This document shows, piece after piece, positions 1 through 17,171 of a stretch of DNA of 25,258 nt. The notes beneath the pieces are model-generated. The model was not told the origin of the DNA. It did not search any database and saw only the letters and a program-made list of their open reading frames with translations. Every line of letters begins with the position of its first letter. The stretch's first letter is position 1. The DNA comes from a virus. A program made the translations under genes and the position numbers. The stretch covers positions 1-25,258 of the IMG/VR virus record IMGVR_UViG_3300044644_001101; one strand, given 5' to 3'.

Positions 1-89
1 TGAGCAATCGCAAGTTCATCCGGTCGAAACTCTGCCAGCGTCGAAACGATCAGAGCGTCAACTGGAGCCGGTGTTTCTTCAATAATCAT
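1..89 (-). CDS. Partial CDS, unknown function (N-terminus only)
   Basis: An ATG at 89 opens a frame that runs off the left edge of the window after 29 codons, beginning MIIEETPAPVDALIVSTLAE. The ATG overlaps the TGA stop of the upstream HD-domain gene (ATGA junction, 86-89), so translational coupling is likely and this is the next gene of the leftward operon. Nothing in the visible residues identifies a family. Confidence 0.6.
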   Translation of the reverse strand, partial: MIIEETPAPVDALIVSTLAEFRPDELAIA

Positions 90-562
90 CTGAGAAATCC
101 TTTCATCAATTCGGAACGGGAAACAAAAACTTCAATCTGTCGGTCAACGGTCAGGAATGACCATGCGCCTTGGTAGTCAGCCCAACACCAGAATTCACGG
201 TCACCGGTCTCTGTGTCCATTTCGTACACGATCGATTCTGTGACCAGAATGCCGAGCTTCTCCTGCAACAGTGCATCGCAATAATCCTGAAACTTGCACA
301 GGTCGGCATTCTTGAACTTGCGAGGAACGTCACTTGTCAGGATCTCGTGTGCGTCGTGATACAGTCCCCACAGTTGCACCTGCGCAGGCTGTTCGCTGAG
401 TGCGTCAAACACGTTCAGCGAATGACTCAACACCGAGCACAGCGGGTGCTGACCACCAAATCGGCCAATCCGTGAAAGGCACTCAGCCACCCATTGCGGA
501 TCTTGCACACATCGACTTGACCATGTTTCAGGATCGTCGATGTAATTCGGCCATTTACTCAC
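86..562 (-). CDS. HD-domain phosphohydrolase (5'-deoxynucleotidase-like)
   Basis: The 158-residue product carries an HD signature: H47 in SVLSHSLNVFDAL, then H69-D70 in GLYHDAHEIL followed by SDVPRKFK. That arrangement is typical of YfbR-like and phage HD phosphohydrolases, which remove phosphate from nucleotides. A role in adjusting host nucleotide pools is an inference from the family. I chose the GTG at 562 because AAGGAG lies 7 nt upstream; the longer upstream frame crosses a strong terminator hairpin (594-632) and looks non-coding. The ribosome-binding site sits in a small hairpin (568-584) with ACGGA in its loop, a possible CsrA target. The end overlaps the next gene by ATGA. Confidence 0.8.
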   Translation of the reverse strand: MSKWPNYIDDPETWSSRCVQDPQWVAECLSRIGRFGGQHPLCSVLSHSLNVFDALSEQPAQVQLWGLYHDAHEILTSDVPRKFKNADLCKFQDYCDALLQEKLGILVTESIVYEMDTETGDREFWCWADYQGAWSFLTVDRQIEVFVSRSELMKGFLR

Positions 563-567
563 AGCGT

Positions 568-584
568 GACTCCTTCCGTGAGTC
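568..584 (-). promoter_or_regulatory. RBS-sequestering hairpin with GGA motifs (possible CsrA site)
   Basis: On the minus strand GACTC and GAGTC form a 5-bp stem around the loop ACGGAAG, directly upstream of the HD gene start at 562. The loop contains ACGGA, and AAGGA spans the loop/stem edge and is the Shine-Dalgarno sequence. CsrA proteins bind ANGGA in hairpin loops over ribosome-binding sites, and this operon encodes a CsrA. Binding itself is inferred. Confidence 0.4.
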
Positions 585-586
585 GG

Positions 587-632
587 TAAAAACAGCCCGG
601 CAGTGCGAGCTGTAGACAAACACTGCCGGGCT
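587..632 (-). terminator. Rho-independent terminator after the DUF669 gene
   Basis: A perfect 12-bp stem (594-605 with 621-632, AGCCCGGCAGTG and its complement) with a 15-nt loop is followed on the minus strand by GTTTTT. It lies between the DUF669 gene end (672) and the HD gene start (562), so it would end or attenuate the upstream transcript. Confidence 0.85.
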
Positions 633-671
633 TTCAGGAGGGCCATCGCAACGCACGACAGCCAATCGAGA

Positions 672-1163
672 TCACTGTTTCGCGAATGGATTCGCTTTGG
701 CGGCAGGTGCTGAAGCAGGAGTTTCAAACGCTTCCTGCATCATGTTGGTCTGCTGCTGAGCGTTTGATTCGGAACGGGACTTGTAGCCCTTGATCTCGTT
801 TCGCGGGTTTCCGTTCTGGTCTTTGCCGATCGCAACCTTGATCGTCAGCGGTCGGTTGTGCAGTTCCTCGCTGTGCTGCGGGTTCTCAATACCGGCTGCC
901 ACGCAGACTGCTTTCAGTTGCGCACGTCCGATTTGCTGAGCCTGTGCCGATTTGTTGACGATGTTCAGCCCGTCGAAAAGTGTTCGGTTCTGAAACGGAC
1001 CATTCAGAATCTGCAGTTTCAGTTCCAACCGCTGCCCGGTGTTGTCTTTCGTCGGATTCTTTTCGCTGCTGACAATCACCGCCGGATATTCGCCTGCCGG
1101 AATCGGTTCAAACGATCCTCCCGGCTGAACGTTTTTCAAATCAAGATCCATCAAACTCGCCAT
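672..1163 (-). CDS. DUF669 phage protein (recombination-associated)
   Basis: The 163-residue protein shows the DUF669 pattern: an N-terminal FEPIPAGEYPAVIV segment, a central GQRLELKLQILNGPFQNR block followed by LFDGLNIVN, then RAQLKAVCVAAGI and ELHNRPLTIKVAI, and a Gln/Ala-rich tail ending in FAKQ. DUF669 proteins are common in phage recombination modules next to Sak4- or ERF-type proteins and are suspected to bind single-stranded DNA; that role is inferred from family context. The gene follows the ATPase stop (1169) by a few bases, and no strong Shine-Dalgarno is visible, so it is probably coupled. Confidence 0.85.
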   Translation of the reverse strand: MASLMDLDLKNVQPGGSFEPIPAGEYPAVIVSSEKNPTKDNTGQRLELKLQILNGPFQNRTLFDGLNIVNKSAQAQQIGRAQLKAVCVAAGIENPQHSEELHNRPLTIKVAIGKDQNGNPRNEIKGYKSRSESNAQQQTNMMQEAFETPASAPAAKANPFAKQ

Positions 1164-1168
1164 GTCAA

Positions 1169-1945
1169 CTACCCTGCTTTCTGTACTGGAGAAACTGAAA
1201 CACCCTTCACGCTGTCATCACTTTTCGGAAACCACTTCGCATAGTCAGCCCATGAAAACCCGATCTCCGCTGGCATGCCTTCCAGCCGATTCTTTGCCAG
1301 GCATGCCGCTGATTCCTGTGTTCTCAGGTATCGCTCTGAATTGCCGACAGCAATTCCTCGTTCCTTGTTAAACCCGAGATCCTCTTTTCGGACGAAGACG
1401 CGATACGAGGCAAATAACACTTCGTCACACCATTCCTGAAGCATCGCTGATGCACTGTCATGCAGTGCTGGCTGATAGCGGTCGTATGAATCGGTTTCCG
1501 GGTCACTGTGTTTTTTGATTGCACAGTGAGCCAACAGAATGACGCCGATTGACTTTTCTTTTCGCAGCCAGTCGAGCTTAAATGTGATCTCGTCCCAGTA
1601 CTTCAGCGCAGATTTGTAGCCATTGCCAAAGCCGATATCCGCGAAGTCTTTTCCGGCCTTCTTCGCGACTTCAGCGTGAATCAGACCTTCCAGCCAATCG
1701 GCTGAGTCAATCGCGATGTGCTGGTATTTGTGCTTGTCGTTTGCAAGCCATATCAACGCTTCGTTAACTGATTCCAGTGACTGCAGATGCTCCGTTCGTT
1801 CGCAGTCAATGTCGTCAAGTCCGTCCTCCAGATTCAATAACAGGCAGTTCGGTGCCTGTGCCGCCCATGTGCTTTTACCGATGCCGTGAACGCCATAGAG
1901 CAGCGTTCTGCGCGGTTTGGTTTTCTTGCCACTAACAATCTTCAC
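1169..1945 (-). CDS. Sak4-like RecA-fold ATPase (AAA_24), putative annealase
   Basis: The 258-residue product has a Walker A motif GVHGIGKST at residues 18-26, a Walker B-like IAIDSAD at about 77-83 and a sensor strand GVILLAHC. This is the short phage AAA_24/Sak4 layout, a RecA-like core used in single-strand annealing recombination. The DUF669 gene immediately downstream supports a recombination module. I chose the GTG at 1945, which has AAGGAG 9 nt upstream and overlaps the preceding stop at 1932 by 14 nt; a GTG at 1972 is also possible but lacks a clear ribosome-binding site. Residues after about 150 (SYDRYQPALHDSASAMLQEW) fit the family's substrate-side region. Confidence 0.85.
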   Translation of the reverse strand: MKIVSGKKTKPRRTLLYGVHGIGKSTWAAQAPNCLLLNLEDGLDDIDCERTEHLQSLESVNEALIWLANDKHKYQHIAIDSADWLEGLIHAEVAKKAGKDFADIGFGNGYKSALKYWDEITFKLDWLRKEKSIGVILLAHCAIKKHSDPETDSYDRYQPALHDSASAMLQEWCDEVLFASYRVFVRKEDLGFNKERGIAVGNSERYLRTQESAACLAKNRLEGMPAEIGFSWADYAKWFPKSDDSVKGVSVSPVQKAG

Positions 1946-2288
1946 TGGTCTTCTCTCCTTCTTTGAAATCACTCAAAAACACTTCCACTTCACGACACTT
2001 CCATCTCTTTGTTTTCTTATTCTTCGCCCACCCATGCACGAAAATTCTGTGACCGTTTTCCACCCATTCTTTCGCCAATGGTGACGCTGAAATCTTTTTG
2101 ATTCGTGCTGAGACATTGCTTCCGCTTGTCACCTGAAAAGCCATCATCTTCGGAGCGATGACAAGCAAATCGATAAAACCGAACAGATCCTGCCGAATGC
2201 GTGCGAATGGGTTCCAGTGCTCGACAATGGCGACCGTCATTCCGCACTTACGAATCTGTGCAAGTGAACGCTGAGTGGGTGAACTCAC
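1932..2288 (-). CDS. Small phage protein, possible PD-(D/E)XK-type nuclease
   Basis: A 118-residue protein with the segment RQDLFGFIDLLVIAPKMMAF followed by QVTSGSNVSARIKKI. The Asp in a hydrophobic strand followed by a Q-V-T-S strand resembles small phage nuclease-fold proteins of the PD-(D/E)XK/VRR group, but the usual E-x-K is replaced by Q-V-T, so activity is uncertain. The C-terminal half (GHRIFVHGWAKNKKTKRW) is basic and may bind nucleic acid. The start is GTG at 2288, with GGAAGG 7 nt upstream and a GTGA overlap with the csrA stop. It sits between csrA and the ATPase gene in the leftward operon. Confidence 0.65.
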   Translation of the reverse strand: MSSPTQRSLAQIRKCGMTVAIVEHWNPFARIRQDLFGFIDLLVIAPKMMAFQVTSGSNVSARIKKISASPLAKEWVENGHRIFVHGWAKNKKTKRWKCREVEVFLSDFKEGEKTSEDC

Positions 2289-2452
2289 TTGCCATCCTTC
2301 CGGTCGTCTTGCACTTCCGCCCGCAAAACAGTTACATCTTTCGGAGCATGCACACCAACTCGAACACGCTCGCCTTTTATCTCCATAATCGTGACGACGA
2401 TTCCGCCATCAATCACGATCGATTCGCCGACCTTACGACCCAGAACAAGCAT
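2285..2452 (-). CDS. csrA: CsrA carbon storage regulator, phage-encoded
   Basis: The 55-residue product begins MLVLGRKVGESIVID and continues with VRVGVHAPKDVTVLRAEV, an unmistakable CsrA. The RNA-binding residues L4, R6 and R44 are present. CsrA forms a dimer that binds GGA motifs in mRNA leaders and usually represses translation. The ATG at 2452 has AGGGA 6 nt upstream and overlaps the end of the preceding small gene (2433). The frame is open farther upstream, but that part lacks family similarity. In a phage, the protein could reprogram host stored-carbon or motility mRNAs or regulate phage mRNAs. The hairpin before the HD gene is the best local target seen. Confidence 0.96.
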   Translation of the reverse strand: MLVLGRKVGESIVIDGGIVVTIMEIKGERVRVGVHAPKDVTVLRAEVQDDRKDGK

Positions 2453-2705
2453 TGCAGTTCCCTTCGCTAATGACCTTGAGAAATCTGTGAGTAGCAGACA
2501 TACTGACAGCAATCTGACCGCGTTTTCGCAGCACTGAAACAGCCACATTGGTGACTTCAGTTCCGTCCTCAAAACGCCACATGTCCGTCTTGCAGAAGTA
2601 CGGCGCAAAGAATCGGCCGCTGTTTCGCAGTCGCTGTTTGCAGACGTGGCCAGCTCGTAGCTTTCGCAGCACTGCATCTGCTCCGAGTCCTTTCACTTTT
2701 GACAT
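2433..2705 (-). CDS. Small basic phage protein, unknown function
   Basis: A 90-residue product from ATG 2705 with a good ribosome-binding site (AAAGGA, 7 nt upstream). It begins MSKVKGLGADAVLRKLRAGH and has a middle segment FCKTDMWRFEDGTEVTNVAV. The protein is basic, with no signal peptide or membrane segment. It overlaps the csrA start by 20 nt, so the two are probably translated together. I do not recognise a family; association with CsrA is suggested only by position. Confidence 0.6.
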   Translation of the reverse strand: MSKVKGLGADAVLRKLRAGHVCKQRLRNSGRFFAPYFCKTDMWRFEDGTEVTNVAVSVLRKRGQIAVSMSATHRFLKVISEGNCNACSGS

Positions 2706-2790
2706 TAAGACTTCCTTTCTTTTTTCTAAGTTGTTCGAGTCGTGGCAACCGGTCCATGGTCATTAAGAGCGTGTCACGGCTCACCACGAT

Positions 2791-2831
2791 TCCGCCGCCG
2801 GGAGTCGAACCCGGCGCAGACCGTCAGCGGA
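2791..2831 (-). ncRNA. tRNA-like acceptor/T-arm minihelix (possible att core)
   Basis: On the minus strand a 7-bp acceptor-like stem (TCCGCTG with CGGCGGA, one G-T pair) stacks on a 5-bp stem (CCGGG/CCCGG) closed by the seven-base loop TTCGACT, a canonical T-loop. Ten bases replace the D and anticodon arms, so this is not a functional tRNA. It may be a remnant tRNA, a tRNA-mimicking RNA, or an integration site matching the 3' end of a host tRNA gene. The T-tract of the hairpin at 2831-2898 abuts it. Confidence 0.4.
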
Positions 2832-2898
2832 AAAAACACTGGAAGCGGTCAATCAGAATCATTGATCCTGAGTCCCAAAACGCAGACCGCCTCCAGTG
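2831..2898 (-). terminator. Long stem-loop with T-tract, terminator-like
   Basis: Two 14-nt arms (2837-2850 and 2885-2898, CACTGGAGGCGGTC on the minus strand) pair with one G-T wobble around a 34-nt loop that holds an inner hairpin (TCAAT/ATTGA, 2849-2865). The minus strand then reads TTTTTT. The long loop is unusual for an intrinsic terminator, so a structured regulatory RNA is an alternative. Confidence 0.5.
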
Positions 2899-2910
2899 CG
2901 GAGAATGCGT

Positions 2911-3006
2911 TTAGTCGCGGTCGTTTCGACGCAAGTTTTCGTCAGTGATTACCCAGCAGACGATGCCGCCGAGCACAGCGAAAAATATGGCTATGAATTC
3001 ATTCAT
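2911..3006 (-). CDS. Tiny single-span membrane peptide
   Basis: A 31-residue peptide starting MNEFIAIFFAVLGGIVCWVI, one hydrophobic helix, followed by a short charged tail (TDENLRRNDRD). The ATG at 3006 has GGAG 8 nt upstream, which supports real translation. It lies in the leftward early region behind the zinc-ribbon peptide gene. The function is unknown; small membrane proteins of this kind may alter host membranes, but that is a guess. Confidence 0.6.
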   Translation of the reverse strand: MNEFIAIFFAVLGGIVCWVITDENLRRNDRD

Positions 3007-3090
3007 GGGACACACTCCGTTATGAGCGTTGAGAAAACGCGGCCTCAGTCGCAGCAGTCGGACAGAGCCACTGGCTGAGGACCGCGAAAT

Positions 3091-3117
3091 GATGCACCGA
3101 AAACAATCCGGTGCATC
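3091..3117. other. Perfect 9-bp hairpin in the early leader
   Basis: GATGCACCG (3091-3099) pairs exactly with CGGTGCATC (3109-3117) around a 9-nt loop, between the 39-residue and 31-residue genes. No T-tract follows on either strand, so it is not a typical terminator. It could be an mRNA processing or stability element. Confidence 0.45.
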
Positions 3118-3125
3118 GTGCTGTT

Positions 3126-3245
3126 TCAATTGCGGCGATACGCACCGCAAGAACAAATGGACGCGGTCCCAGCAGACTTAGGGTTCACAGTGCCACACGC
3201 AGGGCACTTCCGGGCATCTCGCAGGCGACGAAGAAAAGCAAACAT
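3126..3245 (-). CDS. 39-residue zinc-ribbon protein
   Basis: The ATG at 3245 is preceded by GGAGG at 7 nt, the best ribosome-binding site in the early region. The product begins MFAFLRRLRDARKCPACG and ends ICSCGAYRRN, giving C-P-A-C-G and C-S-C-G knuckles spaced like a mini zinc ribbon, with a basic N-terminus. It is the first gene behind the leftward promoter at 3288-3316. The function is unknown; nucleic-acid or protein binding is plausible for so small a zinc-binding fold. Confidence 0.7.
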   Translation of the reverse strand: MFAFLRRLRDARKCPACGTVNPKSAGTASICSCGAYRRN

Positions 3246-3287
3246 TGTCTGTCCTCCAATGTGTTTTTGTTTCAATTAACGCAACAG

Positions 3288-3316
3288 ATATTTACGACTC
3301 TGTAAACCAGAGTCAA
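3288..3316 (-). promoter_or_regulatory. Leftward early promoter with operator
   Basis: On the minus strand TTGACT (3311-3316) is followed after 16 nt by TAAATA (3289-3294), about 44 nt upstream of the zinc-ribbon gene. The palindrome TTTAC-GACTCT-GTAAA (3291-3306) covers the -10 and spacer, and a second dyad GACTCTG/CAGAGTC (3296-3314) overlaps it. This fits a repressible early promoter. Confidence 0.65.
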
Positions 3317-3318
3317 TC

Positions 3319-3522
3319 TCACTCTACCATATTTTTTTTATTTTTCAAAAAATTTTTGACACGGCGCAAATCTGCAGCGGTCAAAATCCATGCAGTACCG
3401 GATTCGGCCTTGCGCCCGATTGCTCCGCCTGCAGCGATGAGGATTTGTCGAACCCGTGCGTCAGTGCATCCCAGTTGTGCGGCTGCTGATTTCGCGGTGT
3501 AGAGTGGTGATGTTTTTTTCAT
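3319..3522 (-). CDS. Small helix-turn-helix regulator (repressor or excisionase-like)
   Basis: A 67-residue protein with an HTH segment SAAAQLGCTDARVRQILIA, a wing-like GRKAESGTAWILT and a helical C-terminus. This resembles MerR/excisionase-type or short phage DNA-binding proteins. The gene is flanked on both sides by the same palindrome (TTTAC-N6-GTAAA at 3291-3306 and 3577-3592, with an imperfect copy at 3531-3546 just before its start), so it probably binds these sites, represses itself and controls both the leftward early promoter and the rightward array promoter. The ATG at 3522 lacks a clear Shine-Dalgarno sequence. Confidence 0.7.
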   Translation of the reverse strand: MKKTSPLYTAKSAAAQLGCTDARVRQILIAAGGAIGRKAESGTAWILTAADLRRVKNFLKNKKNMVE

Positions 3523-3530
3523 GCCGTGAG

Positions 3531-3594
3531 TTTACGATATGGAAAAATAAAATCAATAATAAAGATTGACGAGTGGTTTACAATATTGTAAAAA
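3531..3594. promoter_or_regulatory. Divergent promoter/operator region
   Basis: A perfect 16-bp palindrome TTTACAATATTGTAAA (3577-3592) and an imperfect copy (3531-3546) lie between divergent genes. Minus-strand promoter for the HTH gene: TTGTAA (3578-3583), 16 nt, TATTAT (3556-3561). Plus-strand promoter toward the cassette array: TTGACG (3566-3571), 17 nt, TAAAAA (3589-3594). Both overlap the palindrome. Confidence 0.6.
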
Positions 3595-3611
3595 TTGAGA
3601 GGTAACGATAC

Positions 3612-3818
3612 ATGATAGGATTGAACCCCATGACAACACCAACCCCCGCCCACCATATTCTCGCAGCTACCGGCAACACCGATCATAGCCCATGCAAACG
3701 TTGTGATGGCCCAGGGCGAGAATTGCATGTGTGCCCGTTCGAGCAAGAAATCAACAACGATGAAACACCGTGCAACTGTTGCGCGAAATGTACTGACGAT
3801 TGCAGCATGGAAATTTAA
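3612..3818 (+). CDS. Cys-rich small protein, first gene of the cassette array
   Basis: A 68-residue protein with zinc-binding-like cysteines: CKRC in the middle and CNCCAKC plus TDDC at the end. The ATG at 3612 has GAGAGG 9 nt upstream; a second ATG at 3630 (MTTPTPAHH) with AGGA 9 nt upstream is also possible. It lies just downstream of the putative operator-controlled plus promoter and ends 4 nt before the left box of attC1. Its left cassette border is missing: a GTT core followed by ATGCGG would be expected. It may therefore be a native phage gene that now carries an attC. I do not recognise a family. Confidence 0.6.
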   Translation: MIGLNPMTTPTPAHHILAATGNTDHSPCKRCDGPGRELHVCPFEQEINNDETPCNCCAKCTDDCSMEI

Positions 3819-3822
3819 GTCC

Positions 3823-3912
3823 GCATAACGACGGCATTCACCGGGTTGCGGCCGGTGACTTTAACTCTTCAAGAACCGTGACCCGCAACTCCGGTGGAAT
3901 GCTTTGTTATGC
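3823..3912 (+). other. attC-like site 1
   Basis: The left box GCATAAC and right box GTTATGC pair exactly. Inner arms GCATTC-ACCGG-GTTGCGG and CCGCAAC-T-CCGGT-G-GAATGC pair except for two extra bases (T and G) on the right arm, the extrahelical-base pattern of attC. Unpaired spacers GACG and TTT separate the boxes. The right box contains the ATG (3909) of the next gene. Confidence 0.85.
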
Positions 3913-4190
3913 CGCCTTGTCTGTGGTATCAGGAAGCATTGCCGGGCAAAGACTGTTGTAACGGACCTCCGAACTATCGGTGCGAACACTGCGAGCCAGA
4001 CGGCTTCTGTGAGTCGTGCGATAGTTTCGAGGGTCGGGGCATAGAACAGATTTGTGAGTACGCTTCGACGTGTGACGAATGCGGTGAACTGGTGCATCAC
4101 GATCAGCAACGGATACCGCCGGACTCCAATGATCAACTCGGTTACTGCTGGCTGTGTCGTCCTGATTTGTTTGAGGATGAGTCGGCATAA
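3909..4190 (+). CDS. Cassette gene: Cys-rich multi-knuckle protein
   Basis: A 93-residue acidic protein beginning MPPCLWYQEALPGKDCCNG, with CEHC, CESC, CDEC and CWLC pairs that look like two or more zinc knuckles. The ATG at 3909 is built into the right core of attC1 (GTTATG), and the frame also extends to a GTG at 3894 inside the attC arm. The stop TAA (4188-4190) is part of the left box of attC2, so the gene spans its cassette almost exactly. I know no family for it. Related Cys-rich small proteins are common cassette cargo, and a nucleic-acid or protein-binding role is only a guess. Confidence 0.7.
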   Translation: MPPCLWYQEALPGKDCCNGPPNYRCEHCEPDGFCESCDSFEGRGIEQICEYASTCDECGELVHHDQQRIPPDSNDQLGYCWLCRPDLFEDESA

Positions 4191-4276
4191 CGCTATTTTC
4201 ACCGGGCAACCGGGAAAGGAATTTCAATGTCAAAGAACGCTTTACCGGTTGCTCCGGTGCAAAATATTGTTCACAC
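4184..4276 (+). other. attC-like site 2
   Basis: The left box GGCATAAC matches the start of its own cassette (GTTATGCC at 3906). The arms TATTTTC-ACCGG-GCAACCGG and CCGGTTGC-T-CCGGT-GCAAAATA pair with two extra bases on the right arm. The right core is GTTCACAC (4269-4276). The apical loop holds AAAGGA (4215-4220) and an ATG (4227). Confidence 0.85.
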
Positions 4277-4556
4277 GCCGGGACCGTGGGGCGTGGAACA
4301 AACGACTGTGAGCAATTGGATTGGACGCATGCGGGCAGATGGTTCCAAGGTGGAGTACATCGTAGCCCATACCGACCGCGATTCACTGCGAGATGATGTT
4401 CTGGTCCGGAATGACGCGAACGCTCGGCTGATTGCGGCGGCTCCGGAACTGCTTGAGGCGTGCAAGGCAGGATTGAAAGCGTGCGAGGCTTCTGGCTTTT
4501 TGGGGCCAGTGGAAATGATGCAGCGTGCAATTTCAAAGGCTGAGTCAGTCGTGTGA
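4227..4556 (+). CDS. Cassette gene: HTPGPW-type phage protein
   Basis: A 109-residue protein with the HTPGPWGVEQ segment at residues 16-25 and NARLIAAAPELLEACKAGL near residue 70. This pattern is widespread in phage proteins of unknown function. The ATG at 4227 lies in the attC2 apical loop, with AAAGGA 6 nt upstream; the first 15 residues (MSKNALPVAPVQNIV) are encoded by the attC right arm and core. Conserved members commonly begin close to HTPGPW, so the attC adds a leader peptide in frame. The stop TGA (4554-4556) lies in the left box of attC3. Confidence 0.85.
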   Translation: MSKNALPVAPVQNIVHTPGPWGVEQTTVSNWIGRMRADGSKVEYIVAHTDRDSLRDDVLVRNDANARLIAAAPELLEACKAGLKACEASGFLGPVEMMQRAISKAESVV

Positions 4557-4644
4557 ACGCTTGGCTTAACAGGGTTGCGGACGAACGACTATGAAAGCAG
4601 AACACGGCATGACCGCAACTCCTGTTCAAGCCATTGTTACCCTG
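4551..4644 (+). other. attC-like site 3
   Basis: The left box GTGTGAAC is the reverse complement of its cassette start (GTTCACAC, 4269). The arms TGGCTT-AACAGG-GTTGCGG and CCGCAAC-T-CCTGTT-C-AAGCCA pair with two extra right-arm bases. The right core is GTTACCCTG (4636-4644). An ATG in the loop (4590) opens only a 27-codon frame through the core, with no strong ribosome-binding site. Confidence 0.85.
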
Positions 4645-4649
4645 CTTTT

Positions 4650-4711
4650 TCTGCGACTTTCACCAATCTGGTAAAATCTTTCCGAATAGTATTGTATTCG
4701 TGGGACGAATA
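4650..4711 (+). promoter_or_regulatory. Probable cassette promoter with inverted repeat
   Basis: An extended -10 element TGGTAAAAT (4669-4677) lies 114 nt before the gene at 4791; a weak TTTCTG (4648-4653) is 18 nt upstream of TAAAAT. Just downstream is a dyad CGAATA-GTATTG-TATTCG (4683-4700), with a further CGAATA at 4706-4711, which could be an operator. This is the only cassette with a long leader. Confidence 0.45.
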
Positions 4712-4790
4712 GGCGATACTTCTTTTGTCGCAACGAAGAAGTTCAGCGAACGACTGACACGGGTTGTGCGACGCACACGGGAATAGAGCA

Positions 4791-5087
4791 ATGATTAACT
4801 TCGACGGAATCATTATTGGAACAGAATCAGAAGTTGCTTCTTTCGGTTCAGATCTGTGCTGGAACTACACCGATGGTGGAGTGGTGGTAAAGAATGGTGA
4901 CGCAATCGCGTGTGAGTTTGCGACAAGATTTGCAAGCCGTGACGGCCTCCGCGTGATTGACGCGATCCGCAAGTCGTCTGAGGGGTTCCGGGTTCAGGTT
5001 AGTGATCACGGGTGCGGACGCAAAAGCGTGCAGGTTTTTAATGCAGATGGTTCACTGGCGGCTGATGCAAGCGTTGGTGAAGAATGA
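4791..5087 (+). CDS. Cassette gene: small protein, unknown function
   Basis: A 98-residue protein starting MINFDGIIIGTESEVASFG, with an apparent beta-strand-rich middle (GGVVVKNGDAIACEFATRFA) and a C-terminal SVQVFNADGSLAADASVGEE. I chose ATG 4791, preceded by GGGAATAGAG; a TTG at 4764 is possible but weaker. It has its own probable promoter and is followed 16 nt after its stop by a strong terminator hairpin. It overlaps the next frame by ATGA. No family recognised; a two-gene cassette with a DNA-binding-like partner raises a toxin-antitoxin possibility that the sequence alone does not prove. Confidence 0.65.
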   Translation: MINFDGIIIGTESEVASFGSDLCWNYTDGGVVVKNGDAIACEFATRFASRDGLRVIDAIRKSSEGFRVQVSDHGCGRKSVQVFNADGSLAADASVGEE

Positions 5088-5311
5088 AAGACCCGATGAG
5101 CTTGCGGCTCGGCCCTCTGGCCGGGCCGCTTTTGTTGCGATGTGAAAGCACTGGAGAAACACCCAGCGACGTGCTACGGTTAGCACTGGCAAAAGAGCTG
5201 GGGCTTGAGCCTCCCGCGATGCCACAAGGCTTCGCGGCGATGTCGGAGAAGACTGCGGCAAAGGCTCGGAAGAAGTCTGCGAGAACGAGACGGGCCGCTA
5301 AGTCAGGGTAA
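5084..5311 (+). CDS. Cassette gene: possible ribbon-helix-helix protein
   Basis: A 75-residue basic product with the segment GETPSDVLRLALAKELGL, resembling ribbon-helix-helix regulators, and a Lys/Arg/Ala-rich tail (KARKKSARTRRAAKS). ATG 5084 overlaps the previous stop; ATG 5096 is another option. The start region encodes the 11-bp stem of a terminator-like hairpin (5104-5129), so translation and termination would compete. Its stop TAA (5309-5311) lies within the left box of attC4, as in the other cassettes, which supports it being real. Confidence 0.55.
   Translation: MKDPMSLRLGPLAGPLLLRCESTGETPSDVLRLALAKELGLEPPAMPQGFAAMSEKTAAKARKKSARTRRAAKSG
5104..5133 (+). terminator. Terminator hairpin inside the cassette
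   Basis: GCGGCTCGGCC (5104-5114) pairs with GGCCGGGCCGC (5119-5129) over 11 bp with one G-T pair and a 4-nt loop CTCT, followed by TTTTGTT. It stands 16 nt after the stop at 5087 but inside the 75-residue frame. Confidence 0.7.
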
Positions 5312-5397
5312 CGACGGCATTCACCGGGTGTGAGGGAGCGACTATGAATACTGAAAACGGGCAACCGAACACTCCGGTGCAATGCGTTGTTATCGTG
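5304..5397 (+). other. attC-like site 4
   Basis: The left box CAGGGTAAC matches its cassette start (GTTACCCTG, 4636). The arms GCATTC-ACCGG-GTGT and ACAC-T-CCGGT-GCAATGC pair with two extra right-arm bases; most of the left arm is identical to attC1. The right core is GTTATCGTG (5389-5397). The loop carries GAGGGAG (5332-5338) and ATG 5344. Confidence 0.85.
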
Positions 5398-6168
5398 CCT
5401 TCTGTTGTCAGTTTCGGCGCAGGAACGAACTCCACAGCGATTCTGCAGGGTATGCTGGAGCGTGGAGAAAAGCCGGACGCGATTTTGTTTGCCGACACAG
5501 GAGGAGAAAAACCGAAGACGTACCAGCACTTAGAACGCATGAAGCAGTGGTGCAAAGATGTCGGCTTTCCGGAAATGATCGTAGTGCGATACAGCGACAC
5601 AAGTCGACATGCAAGCCTTGAGGATGAGTGCCACAACAATGGAACACTTCCCAGTAAGGCGTTTGGCTTTGGTGGATGTTCACAGAAGTGGAAACGATAC
5701 CCAATGGATAAATGGGTGAAGGCGTGGCCTACCGCACAAGCGGCATGGGAAGCCGGAAACCGCGTGCAAAGAGTAATCGGAATTCACTACGGCGAAACAC
5801 GGCGTGGAAAGATTCCGGACGATGCACAGTTCACATATCGATTCCCGTTGAGGGAATGGACGTGGGGACAAGAGGAGTGTGAGGCCGCGTGCGTGCGTGC
5901 GTGCGGATACGTGCCTGAAAAGTCAGCGTGCTTTTACTGTCCAGCGATGCGAAAACCGGAAGTGCTCGCACTGGCAAAAGAGCATCCAGAATTATTTCAG
6001 CGAGCGGTTGAAATGGAACAGAATGCACGAGAGGCAGGGGGGCTCGATGTTGTGAAGGGACTTGGGAGACACTGGAGTTGGGAAAGCCTCGTTAAAGCGG
6101 ACAACGCACAGATGAGATTGTTTGTTGAAGACGGTCTTTCGATGTGTGAAACGTGTGTCGATTGGTAG
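5344..6168 (+). CDS. Cassette gene: PAPS reductase-like PP-loop protein
   Basis: A 274-residue protein of the adenine nucleotide alpha-hydrolase fold. The PP-loop VSFGAGTNSTAIL (residues 22-33) is followed by PDAILFADTGGEKPKTYQH, as in phage PAPS reductase/sulfotransferase-like proteins, and a Cys motif ACFYCPAMRKPE lies near residue 195. These enzymes activate or transfer sulfur or nucleotide groups; the substrate here is unknown. ATG 5344 is in the attC4 loop, 5 nt after GGAG, and the first 18 residues are encoded by the attC. A GTG at 5396, just past the core (MPSVVSFG), is probably the ancestral start. The stop falls 1 nt before the next left box. Confidence 0.85.
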   Translation: MNTENGQPNTPVQCVVIVPSVVSFGAGTNSTAILQGMLERGEKPDAILFADTGGEKPKTYQHLERMKQWCKDVGFPEMIVVRYSDTSRHASLEDECHNNGTLPSKAFGFGGCSQKWKRYPMDKWVKAWPTAQAAWEAGNRVQRVIGIHYGETRRGKIPDDAQFTYRFPLREWTWGQEECEAACVRACGYVPEKSACFYCPAMRKPEVLALAKEHPELFQRAVEMEQNAREAGGLDVVKGLGRHWSWESLVKADNAQMRLFVEDGLSMCETCVDW

Positions 6169-6169
6169 T

Positions 6170-6178
6170 CACGATAAC
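6170..6178 (+). other. Left half (R'' box) of a fifth attC-like site
   Basis: CACGATAAC is the exact reverse complement of the start of this cassette (GTTATCGTG, 5389-5397). No matching GTTATCGTG right core is found downstream, so the right half of the site is lost or replaced. It marks the right border of the recognisable array. Confidence 0.75.
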
Positions 6179-6195
6179 TTTGAATTATCAGCCGC

Positions 6196-6314
6196 AGTGA
6201 TATCCCATCCGACCCCGCAAAAACGCGGGGTTTTTATTCGCCCTGATGGAATATCACTCGCAGAGTCAGGTACATGATAATGCCTCGCAACTGATATTCA
6301 GAAATATCACTCGC
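6196..6314. repeat. Three ATATCACT repeats forming large inverted repeats
   Basis: ATATCACT occurs inverted at 6196-6203 and directly at 6251-6258 and 6305-6312; the two direct copies extend to AATATCACTCGC. The first two form a near-perfect 14-nt inverted repeat (6196-6209 with 6246-6259) enclosing the terminator at 6213-6238. TGATATT/AATATCA (6292-6309) forms a further 7-bp hairpin. This is the non-coding junction between the array and the phage tail genes. Confidence 0.6.
6213..6238 (+). terminator. Rho-independent terminator after the array
   Basis: CCCCGC (6213-6218) pairs with GCGGGG (6225-6230), followed by TTTTTATT. It would end plus-strand transcription from the array before it meets the converging minus-strand tail genes. 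Confidence 0.85.
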
Positions 6315-6407
6315 GCAGGATAAACACAGCGAGCCGCTGCGATTTCTCGTAACGGCTCTCCCGGTGCTGTGGTTGTGGCCTGCATGCCTCTACGACGGTC
6401 CGTGCTT

Positions 6408-9173
6408 TCAGGGTTGTGGCAGCTCTGCTCGTGACTCTGTGTTGTAGTGAATTGTGCGACCGTCTTTGATCCAGCTGCCGAATGCACGATTGGGAGCTTT
6501 TGGACGTGGAATCCATTTGCGAGACCAAATTAAATCCGCAGCGGAAGTTCGCTCTACCATCTGCAACGTATCATCGTATCCCTCAGGCCAAACCATGTTT
6601 CGAAATTCAAAAACGATGTTGGCTTGATTACTGAACGTGGATGATTTTTCTGAAGGAATGTAAGTGTCGGAGTCTATATCTTCTGTGCCAAAACGATCGG
6701 TGGTGTAAACCACTAAGATCCCACGTTCTAAAATTGAGTACCAGTTTCGATCCGGATCGATTTCATTGCCTATTCCCCAATCGTTGTATTGAGCACCCAT
6801 CAACGGTTGCACACTGACGATTGGAAAGTTACCGAATGGTGGTGTTCGATTGTAATTTGATCCGGGTGGTCCGAGGGTTTCTGTCAATTCGTCTTCTAGT
6901 TCCGTTTCCGTTGTTGATGTGTATGACATCCAATTCGTGTAGATGAAACTGTCCGGGCTGAAGGTCCATTTTATTTTGATCCGAAATTCGCCCGAAACTG
7001 CACGAATCGCGTTTCGCACCTGATACGCCCACCAGTAGCGACGATACGTTCTGAACCACGGAAGCAACAGATTGGGAGTTTCTACGTTTTCAGTTCTGCC
7101 CAGCCATCGCATAACCATGTCGTCTGATGGTGTCGTGTCGACGTTTCTGCCGACAAGCATACGATCGGATGCCGCTGCGTATAGATTCGCTACTCGACAA
7201 AACAAGTTGGCGTAATCCTCATTGTTGTCAAATAGGTGGGGTCTTGGGTCTGGATGTACAATAGTCGGCAACAGTTCAAGCGTGATGGTGTGCCCTGCTG
7301 TTATCGCGTAGTTGTCATCTTGATCGAGGTTCGCGTTTGTTTGATCTACTGTTGTGCCGAAATAGGCAATGTTTCGCAGGCTGGAAGGCCCATAGATACA
7401 CAAAGGGTTTTCACTATCTCCATCTGCTAGTTTTGCCGCCCAACTAGAACGATATCCAAGCGTGTGAAGAATAGCACCATCACCATAGTTCGCTGACGGA
7501 AGATCTGAAACGCTTCCTGATGATGTGGTCACGAACGTGCCGTATTTACCAAACGTACTATACTTGCCGGACTCCGGAGATAATATGTCCACCACCCCTT
7601 CGTTGTTGGTGCAAGCGTAGCTTATCAAAACAGTTTCGTTTTCGATGTTACTTACACCGCTAAAAGTCGGTGTGATGTCGTCAGTCGAATTTGGGACATT
7701 CAACCAAATCACCCAATTCCTAGTCCATGTTTCTCCGGGTGTCCAGTTTTCTAATGTGCCGAGTGTGGCTAGTAAAATAGCATTACTTCCGCACGCTCCA
7801 ATTATTGTGTTGATTGCTGTGGACGGGGCTGATGTTACTGTTGGCACATCATCATACCCGGAGCTGATCAGCTTGCTCGCTGTTACGCCAGTACCGAAGC
7901 CAAATGACTGCTGGTTGATTGATCCAATTATTTCGCCGGTCTCTGCATCGAACAGCGTCGCTCCTGCCCGTGTCAGTTTTCCGCCTGAAGTGTTGTCGAC
8001 AGAAAAGCCCTTGAAGTCACCAGAAAACACTGTCCACACAATCGTCAGTTCAACCGCCTTATGTGGCCACGGCCCGCCGGTCACCGTGACCGATGACACC
8101 TCTGTGAGAGCATCAATCGTGGCTTCGATGGTTGCATTTGACGCAGTAACAGCGAATACGCACGCTACGTTGCCAACAGTCGTCAGCGTGACGTTTCCGA
8201 TTTTGTAACTGTGCCCGTGCAACGTGTAGTATTTCGTGGCGTTGTTATCATCAAAATCAACCAGTTCCAGCACTGGCGGCGGTCCACCACTGGTCACAAT
8301 GTTTCCGCCGCTAAGCCCGAACAATTCTATTGGGAAATCCGTTGGTCGATAATTGCCTTTCGCGGTTCCGGTGACAAACGCACCGGGGACAACGATATCG
8401 CTTTCAACGCTGCCGTCCTCTGCGTTAAGAGTCACCCAATGCAATGCCTCTGCTGCGTTGGGAGACAGTCCGGGAGATGCACCGACAATGCGAGCCTCTA
8501 AATACACTGTATCGAGTTCGAGTGTTGCGTCTGCTGTGGTTAATCCAGCTGTTATTTCAAATGCTGGCAGTGTGCTGATTCCAGTAGTTCCAAACGCCGT
8601 GGTGATGGTCATCGATGCCCAACCCCATGCACCACTACCCGGTAGGTTTACTACACTTCCGGTGTGCCATGTACCGTTCAGTCGGACTCTCGCACTACTA
8701 ATTGTACCGTCAGAATTGGAATCAAACCGCACACGCATCCACAGCGTAACACTCGTGATTGAACCAGTTTGCAGAAAGTTTCGCAGCGTCCATTGCTGCG
8801 ACTGCGTGTCGGGTGCCCCGCTCATCGGCAACACCGGGCTGCACACGTTACCGTCTCCTGCAACCGGCTGCAGAATGTTTTCGTTGATATTTGTAACGGT
8901 GCGATTTGTCCACACGGCATTCAACGTCGCACGTGGGCGAATAAACTCAGTCAGCCCCGGACGTATCCACGTGCCACCACCGATGGATGATTGCACACGT
9001 TTATTGAGCACTGTATTTGCTGGCACATACCAGCCGGTGATCAGATCACTGTTGTAATGTGGTGTCCATCCTTCACCGGGACCATACTCCCACAGTGTTT
9101 CGCCTGTAGATGTGTCATATCGGCGAATTGTGATATTCGCCTCACCGCAACTACAGCACACCTTAAACGCCAT
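6408..9173 (-). CDS. Large putative tail-tip or fibre protein
   Basis: A 921-residue protein, the last of the leftward tail genes. It begins MAFKVCCSCGEANITIRRYD, an unusual Cys-rich start, followed by DTSTGETLWEYGPG and later LFDAETGEIIGSINQ, short segments reminiscent of beta-propeller or PQQ-like repeats. Much of the remainder is Ser/Thr/Gly-rich and predicted beta, as in phage tail tips and fibres. The C-terminal 250 residues are aromatic-rich (TYRRYWWAYQVRNAI, KIKWTFSPDSFIYTNWMSY). I chose ATG 9173 because GAGG lies 8 nt upstream and the upstream stop is adjacent; a longer frame to 9221 would overlap the previous gene. Adhesin or host-recognition function is inferred from position and size only. 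Confidence 0.7.
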   Translation of the reverse strand: MAFKVCCSCGEANITIRRYDTSTGETLWEYGPGEGWTPHYNSDLITGWYVPANTVLNKRVQSSIGGGTWIRPGLTEFIRPRATLNAVWTNRTVTNINENILQPVAGDGNVCSPVLPMSGAPDTQSQQWTLRNFLQTGSITSVTLWMRVRFDSNSDGTISSARVRLNGTWHTGSVVNLPGSGAWGWASMTITTAFGTTGISTLPAFEITAGLTTADATLELDTVYLEARIVGASPGLSPNAAEALHWVTLNAEDGSVESDIVVPGAFVTGTAKGNYRPTDFPIELFGLSGGNIVTSGGPPPVLELVDFDDNNATKYYTLHGHSYKIGNVTLTTVGNVACVFAVTASNATIEATIDALTEVSSVTVTGGPWPHKAVELTIVWTVFSGDFKGFSVDNTSGGKLTRAGATLFDAETGEIIGSINQQSFGFGTGVTASKLISSGYDDVPTVTSAPSTAINTIIGACGSNAILLATLGTLENWTPGETWTRNWVIWLNVPNSTDDITPTFSGVSNIENETVLISYACTNNEGVVDILSPESGKYSTFGKYGTFVTTSSGSVSDLPSANYGDGAILHTLGYRSSWAAKLADGDSENPLCIYGPSSLRNIAYFGTTVDQTNANLDQDDNYAITAGHTITLELLPTIVHPDPRPHLFDNNEDYANLFCRVANLYAAASDRMLVGRNVDTTPSDDMVMRWLGRTENVETPNLLLPWFRTYRRYWWAYQVRNAIRAVSGEFRIKIKWTFSPDSFIYTNWMSYTSTTETELEDELTETLGPPGSNYNRTPPFGNFPIVSVQPLMGAQYNDWGIGNEIDPDRNWYSILERGILVVYTTDRFGTEDIDSDTYIPSEKSSTFSNQANIVFEFRNMVWPEGYDDTLQMVERTSAADLIWSRKWIPRPKAPNRAFGSWIKDGRTIHYNTESRAELPQP

Positions 9174-9178
9174 GTGAT

Positions 9179-9538
9179 TTACCTCGAAGCCATCGGCCCG
9201 CAATCGCCCATGAACCACCAATGACCGTCTATTTTCATTGCGAATCCCAACGTGTCAGCCTCATAAGAATCCGATTCAGAATGATTCCACACGGTCATTT
9301 GCTCGGTGCCCTCGGTGTATTCCTCGTCGTCATTTGACCATGTGCAGCGTGTAGCCAGGCAGCTGGTGGCACCGGTTAAGGCGTGCGTCGCTACACCTAA
9401 AGCCGCGTCCAGAATCACGGCACGTGGTGGCGCACTGCGAGGGCTGTTTTCTTTGTACGCATTTTCCTGCGTGTTGATGCCCAGCAGCAGGGCTTCTGCG
9501 TCTTCCTTTGCGAATCCGTAGGTGCTTTCGTCGGCCAT
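9179..9538 (-). CDS. Tail-region protein, unknown function
   Basis: A 119-residue acidic protein starting MADESTYGFAKEDAEALLLG, with an Ala-rich middle and a C-terminal GHWWFMGDCGPMA. It begins just after the preceding gene's stop (9540-9542) and ends a few bases before the large tail protein. It lies in the segment where minor tail or tail-tip proteins are expected. No family recognised. Confidence 0.6.
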   Translation of the reverse strand: MADESTYGFAKEDAEALLLGINTQENAYKENSPRSAPPRAVILDAALGVATHALTGATSCLATRCTWSNDDEEYTEGTEQMTVWNHSESDSYEADTLGFAMKIDGHWWFMGDCGPMASR

Positions 9539-9539
9539 G

Positions 9540-10388
9540 TCAGATCCTCAGAAAACTGGCAAAAGCAACTTCCTGATACATGGCGAATTCACGAACACTC
9601 GGAGCTGTTCCTACTGCGACCTTGCCACCGGATCCGTTCAGACCACCTAAAATGATGTTTCCCGCAGCGTCCTCGTAGGGCAACTGATCTGTGCCGACCT
9701 TGTACACGGTGCCCACGTCTAGCCGCTTGTGTTTCCAGTTGCGTTTATCGTATCGCAACGAATACCGTGTTAGCCTGCGTTTGCGACCGTAATAAAAACC
9801 AATAACCGACGACATGACAGTGCACAGCAACGTGCCTGCTGCTCGCCCCTTAAACGGAACGCTGTTCACCACTTCATTGCGATCAATTATGGTTTCATCA
9901 CTTATTGATGGTGATTCGAATTGGAAAAACTCCCAGATTGGAATAAACCGCGCCCGTATCAATCCGTTTTCAAATGGCTGGCCTGCACTGTTCGCTACGG
10001 CGACACCATCAAAATCCTTTGTCACAATTTCCTGCAATCGCTCGAATTTGGTTTCGTAAATCGGCACCCATTCCTGCGGATCTTGCGAGTCGCTTTCTTT
10101 TTGCTGCGACTCATCAACCTCGCTTGAAAACGTTGCCGTAACGTCCCAGTATCGTGGGTGTTCCTCACGCCGTACGGCTGTTACCGCTTTGCATACCGCA
10201 TTGCCAAACGATGACACCGACACATTCGCAACAGGCAGGCCTGGCGTTGCGAGAATCGTGAGGCGGCTTTCGTTCGCGGAATCGGCCTTGACGAGAAAAT
10301 GAAACGTCTCGTCGAGAATTGGAATCCCGCCTGACGATCGAATCGCTGACTGTCCCTGGCGTTGTTCGCCGAGAAGCACTGAGGCCAT
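9540..10388 (-). CDS. Tail-region protein, unknown function
   Basis: A 282-residue protein starting MASVLLGEQRQGQSAIRSSG, with HPRYWDVTATFSSEVDESQ near residue 80 and a basic stretch YYGRKRRLTRYSLRYDKRNW near 200. It begins at a TAATG junction with the gene before it. Position after the tape measure protein suggests a distal tail or baseplate component; the sequence alone does not assign a family. Confidence 0.6.
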   Translation of the reverse strand: MASVLLGEQRQGQSAIRSSGGIPILDETFHFLVKADSANESRLTILATPGLPVANVSVSSFGNAVCKAVTAVRREEHPRYWDVTATFSSEVDESQQKESDSQDPQEWVPIYETKFERLQEIVTKDFDGVAVANSAGQPFENGLIRARFIPIWEFFQFESPSISDETIIDRNEVVNSVPFKGRAAGTLLCTVMSSVIGFYYGRKRRLTRYSLRYDKRNWKHKRLDVGTVYKVGTDQLPYEDAAGNIILGGLNGSGGKVAVGTAPSVREFAMYQEVAFASFLRI

Positions 10389-10792
10389 TATGGAACCTGA
10401 ATTTCTGTTGCTTTAATGCTGAGGTCTAACTGCGTTGTGCTTGATGCAGTCCCGAGTCGAGTCACGTAAGAACCAGTAGCACGGTCGACGTTTGGCATGA
10501 TGCCGCCGGCTGTTGGTGACACCAAATACGTTTCACCGACAACCATTGTGGTTCCCACTAAAATGACAGGGCCACCACTCGCCATGATTCCGTAACCGTC
10601 GGTCACTCCTGGCGTCATCGCGATTCCCTCAGCGGCGGCGAGTGCTAACGATGCGTTAGCATCTGCGGCGACGAACTTGCTCGAGCTTTGCGCAAGCGGC
10701 TGACCGACTGATACCGTGCCTCCGTATTGCACCAAACGAAACTGCGTGTTCGCTGTGGGTCTGACTGCTGTAATGCCGCTGAGATCCGCCAT
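10388..10792 (-). CDS. Gly/Ala/Thr-rich putative virion protein
   Basis: A 134-residue protein lacking long charged stretches, with VSVGQPLAQSSSKFVAADAN, GIAMTPGVTDGYGIMASGG and LVSPTAGGIMP. The alternating small and beta-branched residues and the GIA(M/L) turn resemble DUF2190-like capsid cement or trimeric fibre domains. It starts at a TAATG overlap with the tape measure stop. A decoration or tail-tip role is inferred; the location after the tape measure favours a tail component. Confidence 0.55.
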   Translation of the reverse strand: MADLSGITAVRPTANTQFRLVQYGGTVSVGQPLAQSSSKFVAADANASLALAAAEGIAMTPGVTDGYGIMASGGPVILVGTTMVVGETYLVSPTAGGIMPNVDRATGSYVTRLGTASSTTQLDLSIKATEIQVP

Positions 10793-12534: not shown

Positions 12535-12893
12535 GTGAACCCGAATGCTCTCTTCAGAATATCAGACTGTGCTTTCGGATGTGTTATGCCGCGAGTTTTG
12601 CGTTTCGTCCGTTTTTGCCATCGCAGTGAATCGGACGGCAAAAAATCCACCACGCTCATCGTGTCCATTTTGACGCCTCGCGTAGCTGCCAGAATCGCAC
12701 TGTTTGCGTGCACTGTCGCGGCGATCGACGCGACTTGTTCCCAGTGCGATCCGAACGGCTCACACTGGTAATATGCCCACCATACTTCAAACACTCTTTC
12801 CGGAATTGAGTCTAACCACGCTTCCGGATCATCTATTCCAAGCTCGAGACAGACTCTGCAAGCGAACCTGAGACGGTGGTTGAGACGGACTCC
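12531..12893 (-). CDS. Tail assembly chaperone T region, expressed by -1 frameshift
   Basis: In the -1 frame relative to the G gene, this stretch encodes LELGIDDPEAWLDSIPERVF and then EVWWAYYQCEPFGSHWEQVA, the conserved GpT/DUF4035-like pattern of tail assembly proteins. The frame has no start with a good ribosome-binding site, but it is open from 12911, upstream of the G stop (12833). The run CTG-GGG-GAG (five G at 12892-12896) allows a -1 slip on the GGG codon, giving a 233-residue G-T fusion. An internal start near 12794 would lose the conserved residues, so frameshifting is preferred. Confidence 0.8.
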   Translation of the reverse strand, partial: GVRLNHRLRFACRVCLELGIDDPEAWLDSIPERVFEVWWAYYQCEPFGSHWEQVASIAATVHANSAILAATRGVKMDTMSVVDFLPSDSLRWQKRTKRKTRGITHPKAQSDILKRAFGFT

Positions 12894-13946: not shown

Positions 13947-13948
13947 GT

Positions 13949-16627: not shown

Positions 16628-16656
16628 TCGTTTGCTCCGGGTGTTGTGAGAATGTT

Positions 16657-17100: not shown

Positions 17101-17143
17101 GTTTTTACCTTATGAAAATGATTTCGTTTTGTTCTCAGAAAGA

Positions 17144-17171
17144 CCGGAACGCCAGCGAACCAGCGTTCCGG
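17144..17171 (-). terminator. Hairpin after the capsid gene
   Basis: CCGGAACGC (17144-17152) pairs exactly with GCGTTCCGG (17163-17171) over 9 bp. The minus strand then reads TCTTTCT, a weak T-tract. It is likely a partial terminator or a 3' stabilising hairpin that raises capsid mRNA relative to downstream genes. Confidence 0.55.

Follow-up and report, generated by a model that had tools for sequence, protein, structure and literature searches.

What are four palindromes doing between short plus-strand genes in a tailed phage whose terminase, portal and HK97 capsid genes all lie on the minus strand, and what moves the genes that they separate? The question is raised by the IMG/VR virus record IMGVR_UViG_3300044644_001101, which was analysed over its whole stretch of 25,258 bases (the window). 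The palindromes stand in a block of plus-strand genes between a minus-strand helix-turn-helix (HTH)-like gene (3319-3522) and a minus-strand open reading frame (ORF) of 937 aa (6408-9221). In our view this block is quite probably an integron platform without an integrase of its own, which a lineage of HK97-type phages maintains as a permanent locus for accessory genes; it would be served in trans by the integron integrase (IntI) of the host and is filled with cassettes whose genes are reversed.

Each of the four palindromes has the anatomy of an attC site, i.e., the R''-L''/L'-R' fold with an unpaired spacer and a loop. They are listed with the score of R1, a covariance model made from eight aligned sites and trained on the minus strand, and with the z-score of the plus-strand fold against dinucleotide shuffles.

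3823-3913, minus strand (integron top strand): attC1, cut 3828/3829; R1 89.2 bits (training site); fold z -6.2
4185-4276, minus strand: attC2, cut 4190/4191; R1 75.9 bits (training site); fold z -5.8
4552-4643, minus strand: attC3, cut 4557/4558; R1 96 bits (training site); fold z -3.7
5306-5396, minus strand: attC4, cut 5311/5312; R1 87.3 bits (training site); fold z -2.5

On the minus strand, the fold z-scores of attC1 to attC4 are -6.6, -5.3, -2.8 and -2.0. A structure-only scan of the whole window for the pattern AAC-arm-loop-arm-GTT (threshold 22) scored the four sites at 25-38 and returned one more place (12960-13081, score 23); four Markov-shuffled windows gave one site in total, with a score of 22. 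R1 finds 73 sites in 13 sources (the eight training sites included), and in its structure-fitted alignment 96.8% of the cells pair (69.4% when shuffled), with a covariation of 0.632 (0.151 when shuffled). Rfam, searched at a loose threshold, gave three matches, all under the gathering score and none of them to an attC family. Furthermore, all eight aligned sites have two extrahelical bases on a single arm with six bases between them; read on the bottom strand, the second is T in 8/8 and the first is G in four and C in the other four. Among the window's sites, attC1 alone has G at the first position. An earlier note made from the sequence alone (the original prediction) had proposed an integron-type array of four attC-like sites and one half site inside a phage, and the structure scan, the folding and the box complementarity described below bear this out. 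The two extra bases that it saw on the right arm, six bases apart, are indeed present in all four window sites, and GTT, the only part of the GTTRRRY core that it considered retained, is the only invariant part.

The extrahelical bases by definition mark the R''-L'' arm of an attC, and most attCs have a G after AAC, the partner of a C before GTT (PMC2727003, excerpt). In the present sites these bases sit on the plus-strand arm adjoining GTT, and the plus strand is therefore the bottom, recombining strand and the minus strand the top one. The cleaved box is the left one, CG/TT on the minus strand, and all eight aligned sites have this C ahead of GTT. The further sites recognized by R1 are in this polarity, with far lower scores on the other strand where there are any. 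R1 gives attC1 89 bits on the minus strand and 21 bits on the plus strand, and it recognizes no other window site on the plus strand at E up to 1. Judged from these comparisons, the integron top strand corresponds to the minus strand of the window, and the mobile unit is an attC together with the gene downstream of it, cut at AA/C.

3829-4190, plus strand: cassette D, attC1 body and a gene, the attI-distal unit, running from the AA/C of attC1 to that of attC2; R box match 9 nt
4191-4557, plus strand: cassette C, attC2 body and a phrog_1273-type gene; R box match 9 nt
4558-5311, plus strand: cassette B, attC3 body and two small ORFs; R box match 9 nt
5312-6177, plus strand: cassette A, attC4 body and a gene resembling PAPS reductase and SspD, adjoining the attI-like end; R box match 9 nt

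Each unit lies between two sites, and the right box of the first should read as the reverse complement of the left box in the second. All four window units follow this rule over 9 nt (with the attI-like end as partner in the last one), and of the 70 units taken from the window and the related phages 63 do so over at least 7 nt, taking the GTT nearest the expected place; with shuffled partners, the mean was 7.4 and the maximum 16 of 70 in 2000 shuffles. The match ends abruptly, with pairing in 63/69 units at position 9 and in 16/69 at position 10. Such an R'/R'' match is the classical signature of integron cassettes. That the start of a cassette returns as the reverse complement in a left box had been foreseen; the rule stood, and the lengths given for it (8, 8, 9 and 9 nt) are to be replaced by 9 nt in all four. 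At least one of the seven misses (L105, 5272-5492) is by eye a wrong choice of AAC and is still counted as a miss. Three sites were dropped from the count, namely the first in L110, the single one in L100 and the last in L106. L109, from the same population as the end of L108, is inside the 70 units and was left out of the start-signal counts, the counts at positions 9 and 10, the background of unrelated bodies and the site count of the orientation analysis. As a separate observation, the five unit ends of the window (AGTC starting at 3818, 4180, 4547, 5301 and 6167) all read AGTC-N5-AAC.

Four cassettes with gene parts that are 98.8-99.7% identical occur in different phages next to different neighbours. 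Their upstream attC bodies have identities of 0.99, 0.99, 0.96 and 0.84, and downstream the bodies are 0.67-0.71 identical, or one phage has an attC where the other has the attI-like end; the sequences diverge at AAC. Unrelated attC bodies have a median identity of 0.64 and reach at least 0.84 in 68 of 2087 pairs and at least 0.96 in 14 of 2087, so that the shared cassettes amount to three clear pairs and a weak fourth one (L102/L107). L108 and L109 would make a fifth pair, but as members of one population they tell nothing. The three clear pairs and the weak one argue for cassettes that move as units with the crossover at the core. The original prediction had suggested looking for cassette swaps among related phages, and swapped cassettes were found, with breakpoints at the sites. 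Its polarity has to be turned round, as the extrahelical bases, the CGTT boxes and the shared cassettes put the top strand on the minus strand. It had also assigned each attC to the gene preceding it; as the shared cassettes keep the upstream attC body, the attC goes with the following gene. Correspondingly, the breakpoints expected after G3906, G4269, G4636 and G5389 are found at 3828/3829, 4190/4191, 4557/4558, 5311/5312 and 6177/6178.

The other end of the array is formed by a conserved sequence.

6176-6189, minus strand: core of the attI-like end, GATAATTCAAAG/TT, cut 6177/6178; the conserved flank starts from AAC, and the preceding bases vary between phages
6190-6325, minus strand: conserved region upstream of the attI-like core in the minus-strand reading, with GATATCAC motifs (alignment)

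The conserved phage sequence at this end begins AACTTTGAATTATC, and the bases before it differ among phages; what had been called a half site (6176) is more aptly described as an attI-like end on the minus strand. A possible counterpart can be found in the planctomycete metagenome-assembled genome (MAG) G033 (L118, Lac Pavin), in which one of the two IntI genes has GTTAATTCAAAG/TTCTGCC beside it. By eye, the first R1 site there has TTGCAGAAC as its left box, the complement of GTTCTGC, so that the sequence beside IntI is the junction with the first cassette. In locus L150 of G033 the first cassette begins at AATTCAAAG/TT, and the exact 11-mer AATTCAAAGTT, i.e., AATTCAAAG/TT beside IntI, occurs in 3 of 31 IntI loci (L135, L174, L184). 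L172 has the motif GATATCACGCGC in common with some phage attI regions.

Relatives of the phage were found through the terminase large subunit (TerL), Sak4, a structural gene, the PAPS gene or the flank pattern. R1 sites are present in 12 of 28 related records, ten of which have the attI-like end within the fetched stretch (all but G006 and G023). The 28 are chosen, mostly longer records out of 96 loci, some with prior attC matches and five from the flank pattern; being hand-chosen, they make 12/28 no prevalence figure. The array pieces carry 1 to 12 sites each. One record, G020 (L104), has kept the attI-like end but is without R1 matches at E 0.001. An attC pattern led to five more viral records, three of which match R1, and G034 and G036, both R1-matching, run over 11,778 bases without a difference. 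The viral records L127 and L128 have the left-arm pattern of attC and no R1 match. G001 belongs to the window's own population and repeats window 1-6441 at 99.95%; another contig repeats 6275-20388 at 100%.

In the phage arrays, the longest ORF is opposite to the attC top strand in 59 of 73 intervals (same strand in 13, a tie in one; L157, identical to L155 over 11,778 bases, was left out), in contrast to the host arrays of eight genomes, where it lies on the top strand in 88 of 94 intervals and opposite in 6/94. The longest ORF is a crude measure of the gene strand, and the count does not extend to the last unit next to attI. The usual, though not strictly obligatory, cassette order, with the gene before its attC on the top strand, is absent from most phage intervals, and the phage attC thus lies mostly at the 5' end of its gene. 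In the window, one of the three intervals is opposite and two are same-strand; the plus-strand ORFs of those two were judged to be the likelier genes. The reading frames of the cassettes and the start signals, the latter each comprising a ribosome-binding site (RBS) and an ATG, are as follows.

3894-4190, plus strand: ORF of cassette D, Cys-rich; likely start at ATG 3908 in the R box (by eye); no family match
4215-4229, plus strand: RBS (AAAGGA) and ATG 4227 inside the attC2 loop (sequence)
4227-4556, plus strand: ORF of cassette C, 109 aa, starting inside attC2 with the leader MSKNALPVAPVQNIV; phrog_1273 E 3.5e-15; frame open for 109 codons
4764-5087, plus strand: first ORF of cassette B, 107 aa from TTG; no family match
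5084-5311, plus strand: second ORF of cassette B, 75 aa; no family match
5332-5346, plus strand: RBS (GAGGGAG) and ATG 5344 inside the attC4 loop (sequence)
5344-6168, plus strand: ORF of cassette A, 274 aa, with the attC4-encoded leader MNTENGQPNTPVQCVV; phrog_424 E 1.2e-29; PADLOC SspD E 9.5e-17

A Shine-Dalgarno (SD) sequence followed by an ATG on the gene strand is present in 19 of 72 phage attCs, the SD motifs and the SD window being our choice. Frames of at least 60 codons are opened by 19 of the 22 SD-preceded ATGs in attC, compared with 15 of the 63 ATGs that lack an SD; of the three SD-preceded ATGs that fall short, two are second ATGs and one opens a frame of 56 codons. Furthermore, unrelated proteins begin alike: MNTENGQPNTPVQCVV in the PAPS-like protein, MSKNALPVAPVQNIV in the phrog_1273 protein and MKAENGMTATPVEPIV in two methyltransferases of L105, which by the rule used are without SD. 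In L002, where R1 has no site, the PAPS-like protein has a homologue whose alignment starts only at residue 19 and which has its own SD-like AGGAG and ATG. In cassette B the leader frame of attC3 (4591-4674) closes after 27 codons, and very similar attCs of L105 run into methyltransferase genes; not every cassette is therefore a fusion. It seems that in about a quarter of the cassettes the attC loop supplies the RBS, the start codon and a leader that would be translated.

No integron integrase was found in cis, in agreement with the original prediction. PF00589, searched at E up to 10, matched neither the window nor any of 16 records that carry attC sites or the attI-like end, a search that also misses the phages' own divergent integrases and was made in records that may be fragments, and tblastn with two host IntIs gave no match at E 1e-4 in the phage loci given. 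The locus accordingly lacks the intI in cis of a complete integron and, with at least two attC sites and no integrase, belongs to the clusters of attC sites lacking integron integrases (CALINs) as the term is used in PMC9892861. IntI genes and attCs of the same type are common in one planctomycete order, that of G033: among its 170 genomes, 45 have IntI (TIGR02249 at E 1e-60 or better, with 43 above the cut-off) and 123 have R1 attCs, and R1 reaches 80.4 bits in G033 itself. Searching for the host by attC sequence gave five MAGs, four of which (Planctomycetaceae, Planctomycetota, Pirellula, Planctomycetales) have R1 matches; the fifth, L115 (titled Chloroflexota), has the left-arm pattern once and no R1 match, possibly a chance match or a misbinned contig. 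The protein of cassette C was not found in the 170 genomes of the order, a search without a positive control that shows nothing. Host IntI acting in trans, as the original prediction had also suggested, would be the simplest and likeliest agent, and the hosts are probably Planctomycetes.

We propose that a host integron integrase in trans would insert cassettes at the conserved attI-like end (6176), where the folded bottom strand of attC (the plus strand of the window) would recombine with attI. Unlike those of host integrons, the cassette genes oppose the attC top strand, so that the attC hairpin lies at the 5' end of the gene and the genes point to attI. Transcription of all cassettes would start from a promoter left of the array and stop at a terminator just beyond attI, and the attC loop would provide the RBS, the start codon and a short in-frame leader peptide for about one cassette in four. 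We also lean, with less assurance, towards regarding these as the phages' own 5'-attC cassettes, in which the hairpin would be a portable translation start that adds a leader (M...TPVQ.IV) to unrelated proteins, with the integrase-less attI-like end serving for swaps by host IntI.

Several points weigh against this proposal. GTTRRRY is not matched by the R boxes, and only 4/8 aligned sites have the canonical G as extrahelical base, with C elsewhere, including attC2-4 of the window. The ORF on the canonical strand is the longer one in 13 of 73 phage intervals, among them two of the window's three, and a simpler SD test counts 19 of 72 phage attCs on the gene strand and also 8 of 72 on the other strand (2 and 2 of 36 for host sites). 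In a 14-mer attI comparison, at least 12 matches were reached by 2 of 31 IntI loci and 2 of 155 shuffled loci, and at least 11 matches by 7/31 and 11/155, respectively; a 150-nt profile of the attI region had its best match to the host IntI loci at a non-significant E of 0.52 (4.2 when shuffled). Alignment of TerL with GTDB contigs gave no relative. The recombination is deduced by comparison, and the putative link to the host is made through the attC type. Finally, all phage records are contigs of unknown completeness, and an IntI could sit off the contig.

Two other explanations are improbable to a similar degree. In one, a tyrosine recombinase of the phages' own would move the cassettes and make the phages self-sufficient. 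Divergent phage tyrosine recombinases (phrog_1, E 8e-8 to 2e-5) are encoded just left of the array in three records.

L103 11573-12448, L104 12864-13730, L110 13429-14388: divergent tyrosine recombinases beside the array; phrog_1 match in the three tested

Relatives of this recombinase are also encoded away from the array, in L107 and L155 (several kb from it), L039, L097 and L098; PF00589 missed the family in all but two records, where the match was weak and below the cut-off. However, in L103 the gene adjoins tRNA-Leu and a repressor gene, and such a neighbourhood is the usual layout of a lysogeny integrase. As the array follows the repressor gene, tRNA-Leu and the recombinase there, at least some members of the lineage look temperate, with the array beside the integration module, and it may play a role in lysogeny. 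The similarity of the recombinase to two host IntIs is not beyond chance (best E 0.14), neither the window nor the array pieces L101, L102, L105 and L108 (fragments) gave a match to it, and the features of the sites are those of IntI substrates.

In the other explanation, the array would be a fossil, captured once from a host and then spread by homologous recombination at the attC repeats. The attC bodies are often similar enough for exchange (the 68 of 2087 unrelated pairs mentioned above), and no integrase was found in cis. This speaks for a fossil; against it, similarity in shared cassettes changes at AAC, one cassette has an attC after it in one phage but the attI-like end after it in a second phage, and exchange inside attC bodies would break up the 9-nt R box match within units.

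An array of standard polarity, with each gene followed by its own attC and cuts at G/TT on the plus strand, is less probable still. The R'/R'' match is symmetric and fits either way, and the plus-strand boxes also have GTT; however, the shared cassettes (three clear pairs and one weak) keep the upstream body, the extrahelical bases are on the arm adjoining the plus-strand GTT, i.e., R''-L'', the conserved phage flank begins at AAC, and R1, itself trained on the minus strand, gives attC1 89 bits there and 21 on the plus strand. An assembly or binning chimera of a bacterial integron and a phage hardly merits consideration even for metagenomic contigs, as attC sites recur in 12 of 28 related records (10 with the attI-like end), two contigs repeat window 1-6441 (99.95%) and 6275-20388 (100%), and phage genes lie on both sides of the array.

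The preferred reading, a reversed cassette platform served by host IntI, has partial precedents. The original prediction considered phage-borne cassettes without an integrase to be rare or undescribed; in fact, phage CALINs have been published. Qi et al. (2023) reported integrons and 17 CALINs in phages among 10,705 genomes, and IntI1 recombined five of the six phage attCs tested (PMC9892861, excerpt). Those CALINs resemble the present arrays in being phage attC clusters without integron integrase, with small ORFs and DNA methyltransferase cassettes, and, as far as the excerpt goes, the present case differs from them by a single lineage with many arrays, a conserved attI-like end, reversed genes and start signals in attC. 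The same source describes the Shewanella prophage M16-3, which likewise has an attI at the start of a CALIN inside the prophage; unlike the phages studied here, in which no IntI was found, it is thought to be cryptic and also has a complete integron with IntI. The chromosomal integrons of Planctomycetota (G033, L150) have the same attC type and AATTCAAAG/TT at the first cassette, but differ from the phage arrays in having IntI in cis, genes on the attC top strand and attC at the 3' end. ORF-11 of attI1 is similar in that translation starts inside a recombination site and is read towards the inserted cassette; it sits in attI1 and serves the first cassette, whereas the start described here is in the cassettes' own attCs and would travel with the gene (PMC8876359, excerpt). 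In Treponema, a part of the integron is also in atypical orientation, but there intI is reversed relative to the cassettes, and here the genes are reversed relative to attC (PMC3607928, excerpt).

Phage cassette clusters as such are known; the lineage-wide, gene-reversed form is new. No description of a phage lineage having an attI-anchored array, reversed cassettes or attC-encoded leaders was found in the open-access literature, subscription papers and preprints being outside the search. If the proposal is correct, phage cassette clusters would be a standing gene-shuffling organ dependent on a host enzyme rather than occasional captures, and would offer a testable system for cassette traffic between phage and host. 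An attC could then be coding and drive translation from the 5' end, with the usual order of gene and attC reversed, and annotation that links each attC to the preceding gene would misassign these cassettes.

Candidate expression signals and neighbouring genes were also recorded.

3291-3306, no strand: second copy, TTTACGACTCTGTAAA, of the palindromic motif at 3577-3592 (motif search)
3319-3522, minus strand: HTH/excisionase-like gene left of the array; phrog_2655 E 0.0077, weak
3566-3595, plus strand: sigma-70-like promoter candidate reading into the array; consensus match only, 5 such in the region and 2.0 expected
3577-3592, no strand: palindrome TTTACAATATTGTAAA overlapping the promoter candidate, possible operator (motif search)
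3612-3818, plus strand: ORF of 68 aa left of the first attC, array remnant or leader; no attC found to its left
6211-6232, plus strand: terminator-like hairpin just past the attI-like end; 6 in the region and 3.7 expected, sequence conserved in part of the clade
17206-18561, minus strand: HK97-type major capsid protein; PF05065 E 2.5e-30
20385-21995, minus strand: portal protein; PF04860 E 4.6e-65
21992-23698, minus strand: terminase large subunit; PF20441 E 3.2e-33, PF03354 E 2e-20

The terminase, portal and capsid genes place the window among the tailed phages, and Sak4 and tape measure families were also matched by its proteins. In the window's population and in a single other phage (records L055, L087 and L105 besides the window), two copies of TTTACN5TGTAAA surround the HTH-like gene, possibly as an operator pair. 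Among 74 cargo proteins scanned (73 of 81 ORFs, with repeats and one small ORF left out, and the window ORF 3612-3818; some may not be genes), there were few family matches: three DNA methyltransferases, two PAPS reductase-like proteins and single others. This cargo would fit DNA modification and host interaction, with most of the proteins being without a family match.

The flanks match those of relatives on the left up to 3245 and on the right at 6173-6409 and from 9147 onward, and the interval between differs. The locus L054, from a close relative, is 97% identical to window 2298-3245 and encodes a phage integrase shortly past the point at which the HTH-like gene and the palindromes stand in the window; compared with the window, this appears to be a module swap next to the array. 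The ORF at 2285-2677, ending in MLVLGRKVGESIVIDGG, may encode a CsrA-type regulator.

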